Part shown: positions 54,259 to 57,264 of the stretch, piece by piece
Layout: the number at the start of each line of letters is the position of its first letter
How positions within the stretch are numbered: position 1 is the first letter of the stretch
Assembly (NCBI GenBank): GCA_015056815.1
Contig: SVFN01000003.1
Span: 96,021-160,020 of the forward strand
Length of the DNA stretch: 64,000 nt
Reading direction: 5' to 3'
Source of the DNA: Lachnospiraceae bacterium
GTDB lineage: Bacteria > Bacillota > Clostridia > Lachnospirales > Lachnospiraceae
Notes under the pieces: model-generated
What the model saw: the letters and a program-made list of their open reading frames with translations, nothing else
Databases searched by the model: none
What the model was told of the DNA's origin: nothing
Program-made: the position numbers and the translations under genes

Positions 54259-57200
54259 ATGAAACGAAACAAATGGAAAAGGTGGCTCTCGGGTGCGATG
54301 GCTTTCATACTTGCGGGCACAGGCTTTTCGGGGATGCAAGCTATGCCGGCAAAGGCGGCAGGGACGCCTGCAAGCTATGCAGAGGTCTTCACATCACTCT
54401 ATAAGGATGTTATCATAAACGGCCGGGAAAATGGTTATCTGAGTGACCAAAAAAACAGTGACTCGGCATACGGGGTACCCTATCATGCGGTGGAGACCTT
54501 CGTGGTTGACGGTGTGGATCAGGGTCATGAGACGACTTCAGAAGATGTGGCCTATCTGGTGCAGGCGGCAGCGATGAGAGATACGTTAGTCAATGCGAAA
54601 AAGATAAACGGTACGACAGGTGAGCTGGATAAGGCATGGAGTACACTGGAGTCCATGATCCCCGGCTGGTCTGAGGTGGCTGGAAATGAAGATGTCAACT
54701 TTCAGAAATTCTGGGATGTGGAAAGCTTTCAGGCGGATACGGTAGAGGAAGGTGATGAACCGACCAATTATCCGACGATGTCGCCGGATGTGAAAGCGGT
54801 CAATCCGATGTATCCGGTATTTAAACAGGCTTATTCGTCGGAGAATGGATATTATCTGATGCAGTCTTTGGCAGACGTGGATGATTGGTACGGCTTTGGA
54901 GGAAGGCAGATGGATACACAACCAAAAGGCCGGCTCACTTATATCAAAACGCACAAGAGGGGAGCGGGTGAATCATATTTTGAAACAGTGCCAAGTCCCT
55001 GCGTGGAAAGACTCCAGTATGGAGATAAAGAAAATGGCGGTATGCTGGGAATCGTTAGTAAAGCGCAATTTTGGCCCAAGCAGTATCAGTTTGAATGCGC
55101 TCCTGCTGCGGAGCAGCGTGCGATCGAAGCAGTGTATTTCGCAAATCGCAATGGGGTGGGGAAGACGGAGTCTGTTTCTAAAAAAGCGGGGGAAATGGGT
55201 GATCAGCTTCGAAATGTCATGTTTGATACCTATTATAAAGCAATTGCTAAGGAGACCACTATCCATAGCAATTCCAGCGAAGCAGCAAAGTCCTGCCACG
55301 GATTGATGGGGATCCATACAGAATGGGGAAGCGGGATAGAAGGAAGCTGGGGCTGGCAGACAAGCGGATCCCATATCCGGCTGGCTGATCAGAATCCCCT
55401 GTCAGCCTACGCCTGCGTCAAAGATCCGGACATCAGTAATGCTATGAAAGCAACGGGAGCATTGTCAGATTATCAGGAGTCATTGAAACGCCAGATGGAA
55501 TATTATCTGTGGCTGCAGTCGAAAGAGGGGCCCATTGCGGGGGGATGCACGAATAGTTTCCGGGGAAGATATGAAGTGTATCCAAGCGGATGGCCATGCT
55601 TTTATGATATGATCTATGTCGCTCATCCTGCCATGACAGATCCGGGCTGCAATGAATCCATACGATCCCAGGCGGTGACGATACAACGTCTTGCAGAGTT
55701 GTATCAGACTGTCAAACAAGAGGGAGAGATCACAGGAGTGAAGCCCGGAGAAATGACAATAGAACAGGCGGCAGATACCTTACTGACCAGATGGATCAAA
55801 TGGTTTATCGCAAATGTAAAGTTTGATGAAAAAGATAAATTCGGAAATACCTGTGCGTATCTGATCCCGGAGAAACTGGATTGGGGCGGAAGTACGAATG
55901 TGCCGGCTACATGGAACGGGTATTATGATCCGAATGGGAACAGGTATCTTAGCGCCAAGATCACAAGCTATGGACAGGCGGATGTGGAGAGTGTTTCCGC
56001 AATCTGCAATGCGCTGATCTGTTATGCCAAGGCAAAAGAAGTGGATGCGAAGTACGCAACCGAAGAAGGAACGGAAACTGCCCAAAAAGCTCTTTACTAT
56101 GCAAACAGGCTGCTTACAGCCCAGTATCGTGAAGGAAGAGATGACAAAGGAATTGCATTCACGGACAGTGATGCAGCTTTAGCAAGGGTTTTTGAGGAAG
56201 AAGTCTATATCCCGCATTATTATGATGGCAAGATGCCGGATGGATCTGTGCTTACAAACGGGGCGACCTTTAGCTCCATCCGCAGCCAGTACCGGAAGGA
56301 TCCCGCTTATAAAGAGGCGGAAGCATATTACGCAGGCGAGGACAGAAACGGTTATTCGGTTTCCGATAAAAACGGAGACGGAGTGATCGACATGAACGAT
56401 TATACTTACAAGCACCATAAATTTGCCGCACAGTGCAGCGCGATGACAGCTTATGGTACTATGGCACTTCTGTATCCAAATGTGAAATTGACAGACGGCT
56501 CTGAAAAAAAGACTTATATAGTAACATTTGATTTAAATGGAAAAGGCTCGAATCAAACGCAGACGGTAGTCGACGGGGAGAACGCGGTCGTACCGTCGGC
56601 ACCGACTGCAGAGGGCTTTACGTTCGGCGGCTGGTATACTTCAAGTAATTGCAGGGATGATGAGAAGTACGACTTTGCTGATCCGGTGACAAAAACGCTG
56701 GTTTTGTACGCAAAATGGAGCGCAGTTTCAGAGACGCCTGCGGAGGATCCCAAATCAGGTATGGGAGATAAACCCGCGACCGGGCCGGAAGAAAAGAAAA
56801 CAACAGCACCGGAACCAAAGGGAACCGTCATCGAAGATGGTAAGAGCGGGGGTGTTTATGTGGTAACATCTAACCCCGTGGGGGAACCGACGGTGGAGTA
56901 TAAAAAACAGATGTCAGCAGGTGGAAAGAGTGTTGTTATTCCGGATACCATCGTGAAAAATGCGATCACCTATCAAGTGACTTCCATCGCGGCCAACGCC
57001 TGCAAAAAGCAGAAGAAGCTGACAAAAGTCGTGATCGGAAAGAATGTAAAAAAGATCGGCAAGAATGCCTTTAACGGCTGTAAGAGCTTAAAACGCATTA
57101 CCATCAAAACGACCATGCTCCAAAAGTCCGGTGTCGGCAGGAATGCCTTTAAGGGAATCCATGCGAAAGCAACTGCGAAAGTGCCGAAGGAAAAGCTCAA

Positions 57201-57264
57201 ATCTTATACGGCTATCTTAAAAGCAAGAGGGATGAAAGGAAAACAGCAGAAGATTAAGAAATAG
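54259..57264 (+). CDS. Secreted GH48-family glycoside hydrolase with InlB_B-like and BspA-like C-terminal domains
   Basis: This 1001-residue protein has a signal peptide ending in AKA near residue 33. Residues about 38-745 match GH48: YHAVETFVVDGVDQGHETTSED, SKEGPIAGGCTNSFRG and EEEVYIPHYYDGKMPDG. In Cel48F the segment VEAPDYGHVTTSEA holds Glu44 and Glu55; here Glu55 is kept and the Glu44 position is Asp. An EF-hand-like DKNGDGVIDMNDY stretch is inserted near residue 702. Residues about 750-822 resemble an InlB_B/Flg_new repeat and 865-1001 a BspA-type LRR. No dockerin or cellulose-binding module is visible. Confidence 0.88.
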   Translation: MKRNKWKRWLSGAMAFILAGTGFSGMQAMPAKAAGTPASYAEVFTSLYKDVIINGRENGYLSDQKNSDSAYGVPYHAVETFVVDGVDQGHETTSEDVAYLVQAAAMRDTLVNAKKINGTTGELDKAWSTLESMIPGWSEVAGNEDVNFQKFWDVESFQADTVEEGDEPTNYPTMSPDVKAVNPMYPVFKQAYSSENGYYLMQSLADVDDWYGFGGRQMDTQPKGRLTYIKTHKRGAGESYFETVPSPCVERLQYGDKENGGMLGIVSKAQFWPKQYQFECAPAAEQRAIEAVYFANRNGVGKTESVSKKAGEMGDQLRNVMFDTYYKAIAKETTIHSNSSEAAKSCHGLMGIHTEWGSGIEGSWGWQTSGSHIRLADQNPLSAYACVKDPDISNAMKATGALSDYQESLKRQMEYYLWLQSKEGPIAGGCTNSFRGRYEVYPSGWPCFYDMIYVAHPAMTDPGCNESIRSQAVTIQRLAELYQTVKQEGEITGVKPGEMTIEQAADTLLTRWIKWFIANVKFDEKDKFGNTCAYLIPEKLDWGGSTNVPATWNGYYDPNGNRYLSAKITSYGQADVESVSAICNALICYAKAKEVDAKYATEEGTETAQKALYYANRLLTAQYREGRDDKGIAFTDSDAALARVFEEEVYIPHYYDGKMPDGSVLTNGATFSSIRSQYRKDPAYKEAEAYYAGEDRNGYSVSDKNGDGVIDMNDYTYKHHKFAAQCSAMTAYGTMALLYPNVKLTDGSEKKTYIVTFDLNGKGSNQTQTVVDGENAVVPSAPTAEGFTFGGWYTSSNCRDDEKYDFADPVTKTLVLYAKWSAVSETPAEDPKSGMGDKPATGPEEKKTTAPEPKGTVIEDGKSGGVYVVTSNPVGEPTVEYKKQMSAGGKSVVIPDTIVKNAITYQVTSIAANACKKQKKLTKVVIGKNVKKIGKNAFNGCKSLKRITIKTTMLQKSGVGRNAFKGIHAKATAKVPKEKLKSYTAILKARGMKGKQQKIKK

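Follow-up and report, generated by a model that had tools for sequence, protein, structure and literature searches.

The locus described here raises the question of what a GH48 protein does when it carries neither a dockerin nor a CBM and ends in modules known from bacterial surface proteins. GH48 serves as a molecular marker, given that all GH48 organisms studied so far are truly cellulolytic (PMC7565076). The protein in question, referred to as P0001, is encoded in the 64,000-nucleotide stretch of Lachnospiraceae bacterium DNA that was analysed (the window; contig SVFN01000003.1). Our best reading is that P0001 is a GH48 by fold and descent, and not by cellulase function.

Domain organization of P0001

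The ORF begins with ATG, contains no internal stops and encodes 1001 aa (Table 1). Pfam profile PF02011 (GH48) covers aa 40-695 with E=1.3e-127 and 427 bits (cut-off 25), and neither a dockerin nor a CBM was detected by Pfam even at E<=10, in agreement with the original prediction. The InlB_B-like repeat and the LRR that it had named were likewise recovered, the first as PF09479 (aa 753-819, E=2e-16, 60 bits, cut-off 27) and the second as PF13306, LRR_5 (aa 908-976, E=1.1e-8, 35 bits, cut-off 27.7). The protein had also been called secreted; a signal-peptide-like N-terminus can indeed be read, and on this basis P0001 is presumably exported. Within 397 genomes of the same family, five other GH48s score 930-1070 bits against the GH48 profile, compared to 427 in P0001, which is the sole GH48 of its genome.

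The AF2 model reaches pLDDT of at least 90 over 488 residues, nearly all of them within the GH48 domain. In a Foldseek search this model matched CelS, Cel48F and CelA with TMt of 0.90-0.92, which points to the (alpha/alpha)6 barrel.

Table 1. Features of P0001 and its upstream region, in window coordinates
Feature	Position	Strand	Basis
Sigma-70-like promoter match upstream of P0001	54032..54059	+	TTTACA-16-TATAAT, 11/12, consensus match only
Whole P0001 ORF, GH48-fold protein, 1001 aa	54259..57264	+	ORF and Pfam
Sec signal-peptide-like N-terminus, aa 1-34	54259..54360	+	KRNKWKR / hydrophobic core / AKA, sequence reading
GH48 (alpha/alpha)6-barrel domain, ~aa 40-740	54376..56478	+	PF02011, AF2 model, Foldseek CelS TMt 0.92
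Asp84 = Cel48F Glu44	54508..54510	+	Alignment
Glu95 = catalytic acid Cel48F Glu55 / CelS Glu87, kept	54541..54543	+	Alignment
Asp96 = Cel48F Ala56; Asp in 3/3 base-less members, 0/101 others	54544..54546	+	Alignment
Ala283 = catalytic base Cel48F Asp230 / CelS Asp255, lost	55105..55107	+	Alignment
Asp377 = Cel48F Tyr323 / CelS Tyr351, candidate relocated base	55387..55389	+	Alignment; PMC2953488
EF-hand-like loop DKNGDGVIDMNDY, aa 703-715	56365..56403	+	EF-hand loop pattern; upstream of KHHKFAAQC
Ala723 = tunnel Trp Cel48F W611, lost	56425..56427	+	Alignment
Listeria-Bacteroides (InlB_B-type) repeat, aa 753-819	56515..56715	+	PF09479 E=2e-16
Pro/Lys/Glu-rich linker, aa 820-890	56716..56928	+	Low confidence in AF2 model
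C-terminal LRR_5 and basic tail (NAFKGI..VPK..Y), aa 908-1001	56980..57261	+	PF13306; generic module of the genome

Loss of the catalytic base in P0001 and two relatives

Residue numbering was anchored by a solved-structure alignment of a close Cel48F homologue and by an alignment with CelS. The general acid (Cel48F E55) is present as Glu95, and the position of the general base (Cel48F D230, CelS D255) is occupied by Ala283. Assignment of the base in CelS was argued by computation (PMC2953488), and PMC4055089 reports that it was argued by experiment in Thermobifida Cel48A. The changes listed in the original prediction, Glu44 to Asp and APDYG to GVDQG (within EAPDYG to DGVDQG), are real, although the loss of the base and of most of the tunnel was missing from that list. 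KHHKFAAQC, which had been taken as a conserved region, departs from the family form H-R-F-W, and the Trp (Cel48F W611) is lost in P0001.

Relatives were searched for by scanning a two-member alignment against 85,462 species genomes, which yielded 80 loci (none were obtained with the single protein). Nearly all of them are GH48s of Ruminococcus flavefaciens type, with 43-53% identity. Two relatives share the loss of the base. The first, L133, is encoded by a 990-aa ORF of the isolate Lachnospiraceae bacterium V9D3004 and has Gly at the base position, the acid Glu and the E44D change; its C-terminus consists of the LRR tail as in P0001, and of that tail only. The second, L057/L117, comes from a sheep-rumen MAG (L057 at G841:C2:52536-54233) and has Ser at the base position, Asn in place of the acid, an in-frame loss of ~130 aa of the barrel and a dockerin-like C-terminus. 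Loss of the acid was seen in no further GH48 of this analysis. Among intact relatives, 100/100 readable sequences have Asp as the base, the acid is Glu and the Tyr323 position Tyr in 101/101, and E44 is invariant. The occurrence of three different residues (Ala, Gly and Ser) at the base position suggests that no constraint acts there after the loss. No further base-less member appeared in ~1,980 genome searches, mostly within the same class, order or family and with some genomes repeated, and no description of a base-less GH48 was found in the literature searched. At only ~52% identity between members, one expects silent sites to be saturated.

Phylogenetic position and origin

In the ML tree, P0001 and L133 form a clade (support 100/98), joined by L057 in a base-less trio (80/99), in accordance with the divergent clade that had been proposed. 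The trio is nested within Ruminococcus GH48s (95/94 for 15 rows, 100/98 for 19 rows). Vertical descent of P0001 and L133 with the sampled GH48s of Lachnospiraceae and the same order was rejected, at a cost of 370 log-likelihood units (AU p ~1e-47). Branch lengths in the trio are 0.66, 1.11 and 1.71, compared to a median of 0.23, and because of these long branches both the placement inside Ruminococcus and the monophyly of the trio carry some risk. The origin of P0001 is most simply explained by horizontal transfer and a subsequent swap of the C-terminus. GC of the gene resembles that of its neighbours. Judging by their sequences, these include trp genes, a GGDEF protein, GroES/GroEL and RelA, and no glycan locus was found among them.

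The segment DKNGDGVIDMNDY (aa 703-715) fits the EF-hand loop pattern and sits inside the barrel; it may bind calcium. Such an insert is indeed present before KHHKFAAQC, as had been noted, but is not peculiar to P0001, being found also in L133 and in ten GH48s of R. flavefaciens type whose catalytic residues are intact (L063, L064, L067, L069, L070, L074, L075, L093, L095 and L104). Within the catalytic barrel of this subset it precedes the last helix and is separate from the dockerin. Its presence in ten intact enzymes rules it out as a sign of new function and makes it a mark of descent, and its distribution agrees with the placement of P0001 and L133 among Ruminococcus GH48s. A truncated dockerin was also ruled out, given a single loop inside the barrel and a genome with neither dockerin nor cohesin.

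C-terminal tail and genomic context

A search of its own genome (G000) with P0001 as a query gave 88 match places, from which 40 ORFs of 500-3500 aa were extracted. The LRR_5 and basic tail was matched in all 40, and is thus carried by at least 40 large ORFs. Among 36 of these ORFs scanned with Pfam profiles, LRR_5 was found in every one, GH43 in seven, and GH53, GH59 and GH127 in one each. The C-terminal architecture, originally described as unusual, is so for a GH48 but ordinary in this genome, where the tail looks like a genome-wide surface module.

Proteins of G000 with the tail also include a papain-type protease and transglutaminase-like proteins. Examples outside the window are C50:63476-63925, C13:15983-16426 and C6:8996-9355, and the shared motif reads NAFKGI..VPK..Y..KKG..KIK. 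At G000:C13:15800-19500 (L156), a DUF6273 protein with an InlB-type repeat ends in the same LRR_5 tail. The tail is present in G027 as well, and in many copies in V9D3004. The host of P0001 is a gut-type bacterium.

No dockerin or cohesin (PF00404, PF00963) was found in the genome of P0001, which sets the protein apart from cellulosomal enzymes; in such a genome the tail may do what dockerins do elsewhere. One GH9, the classical partner of GH48, is encoded at G000:C28:17493-18725 (L193), in an ORF of 996 aa in which DAGD and NEVALDYNAG motifs can be read, with a TDTPGG repeat linker and no LRR tail.

Dismantling of the substrate tunnel

The GH48 tunnel has been described as nearly invariant (PMC5707792). 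We used the 36 tunnel residues of Brunecky et al. (PMC5707792 Table 2), all of which could be mapped without mismatch to the Cel48F-like row, and scored those columns that are conserved both within Ruminococcus GH48s and among the remaining GH48s. Of the 24 tunnel residues so conserved, P0001 has 6 left, compared to 130 of 146 (89%) elsewhere (Fisher p 1.8e-10). Corresponding values are 5/24 and 121/146 in L133 (p 3.6e-9), and 7/22 and 109/143 in L057 (p 7e-5); retention of the tunnel columns is 96% or more in every intact relative. A second list, based on ligand contacts (PMC4055089), agrees (p 1.6e-6 for P0001). Residues lost in P0001 include the tunnel tryptophans W154, W298, W411, W417 and W611, and Tyr403 (Cel48F numbering). 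At the level of sequence, the tunnel is dismantled and the scaffold preserved, that is, change is aimed at the tunnel.

Such a pattern fits poorly with simple decay, in which a former cellulase is losing function and has no present role. Long branches and tunnel residues that vary freely would be in line with decay, as would L057, with its base, acid and ~130 aa of barrel gone. On the other hand, neutral loss would not target the tunnel, P0001 and L133 are intact and share a refitted tail, and the open frame together with the 89% retention outside the tunnel argues against a pseudogene. We therefore consider decay improbable.

Having lost its catalytic base and the greater part of the cellulose tunnel, P0001 is very probably no cellulase. 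A working cellulase with another residue as base would account for the strong GH48 assignment, the kept acid and the presence in the genome of one GH9 with the usual motifs. It would have to operate after the loss of all six aromatic residues named above, and in Cel48F the E44Q change by itself leaves ~1% of activity (PMC4055089), which renders this explanation the least credible of those considered. Nor is P0001 an ordinary cellulase bearing a dockerin with its catalytic residues all aligned, the case that would have counted against the original prediction.

Putative function

We assign a probability of roughly 0.6 to P0001 having no catalytic activity and being a secreted GH48-fold protein associated with the cell surface, with another glycan, or else a protein, as ligand and the tail as its anchor to the cell. 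Its ancestor would have been a GH48 cellulase with a dockerin, of R. flavefaciens type, acquired by a lineage of Lachnospiraceae. In that lineage the C-terminal surface module of the host (InlB_B-type repeat and LRR_5 tail) would have taken the place of the dockerin, and the GH48 barrel would have been retained while the base and the larger part of the cellulose tunnel were lost. The tail would hold the protein at the cell, and the altered barrel would bind its ligand, a different glycan or a protein. Another glycan target, as the original prediction had it, remains a hypothesis: loss of hydrolysis is favoured, as the base and most residues that bind sugar have disappeared, and the EF-hand insert lends the glycan claim no support.

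Against a non-catalytic protein speaks the retention of Glu95 and its partner His76 in both tail-bearing members, P0001 and L133, despite the loss of three quarters of the conserved tunnel. In addition, all three base-less members share states that are rare or absent elsewhere (96D, 368T, 373I, 376A, 377D, 578S and 582I), four of the seven lying within 10 residues (permutation p 0.0005). Asp96, Thr368 and Asp377, clustered near the old active site, hint at a rebuilt site. P0001 could accordingly be an active inverting glycosidase in which Asp377, Asp96 or Asp575 replaces Asp230 and, together with Glu95, cleaves another glycan, probably a shorter or bulkier one in a widened cleft. The main argument is Asp377, which like Asp96 and Thr368 is fixed in 3/3 diverged members and occurs in 0/101 others; Asp575 is kept in 3/3. 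In CelS simulations, the hydroxyl of the equivalent Tyr351 hydrogen-bonds O3 at subsite -1, and this residue is 5.5 A from the anomeric carbon, compared to 5.3 A for the base Asp255 (PMC2953488). Asp is shorter than Tyr and so would be further from C1, and most sugar-contacting aromatics are lost and freely different among the three. Moreover, L057 has Asp377 after its acid was lost, so this Asp can persist without catalysis. On balance we regard an active glycosidase as unlikely, if clearly ahead of decay. Slightly more doubtful still is the specific proposal that the trio would constitute a distinct GH48-derived enzyme type, with the base moved from Asp230 to Asp377 (Tyr323 position), the tunnel opened and a different glycan as substrate.

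Comparison with known GH48 and surface proteins

A clade of bacterial GH48s that lack base and tunnel violates the rule on which the use of GH48 as a marker relies, and such proteins would give rise to false positives when genomes and metagenomes are surveyed for cellulose degraders. The clade is also a testable example of the conversion of a cellulase to a binding protein or new enzyme, and of the replacement of a dockerin by a host-wide surface tail.

The closest kin of P0001 are dockerin-bearing GH48s of R. flavefaciens type (e.g. L063, L067 and L070), which are 43-55% identical to it over the GH48 domain and some of which share the EF-hand insert; they differ from it in keeping E44, E55, D230, Y323 and the tunnel, and in having a dockerin-like end. 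CelS/Cel48S of Acetivibrio thermocellus and Cel48F of Ruminiclostridium cellulolyticum have the same barrel (TMt 0.92 and 0.91, respectively), and the catalytic acid with its His partner is common to them and P0001, whereas in P0001 the base is lost, 18 of 24 conserved tunnel residues are changed and there is no dockerin. The insect GH48 APAP I is likewise a non-cellulase GH48 of bacterial origin, but it is eukaryotic and reported to be active on chitin, as a chitinase (PMC3981738). BspA-type LRR_5 and InlB_B-repeat surface proteins carry the C-terminal modules found in P0001, recognized here by LRR_5 and PF09479; unlike in those proteins, the modules of P0001 are joined to a GH48 fold, a combination present in no other GH48 studied here.
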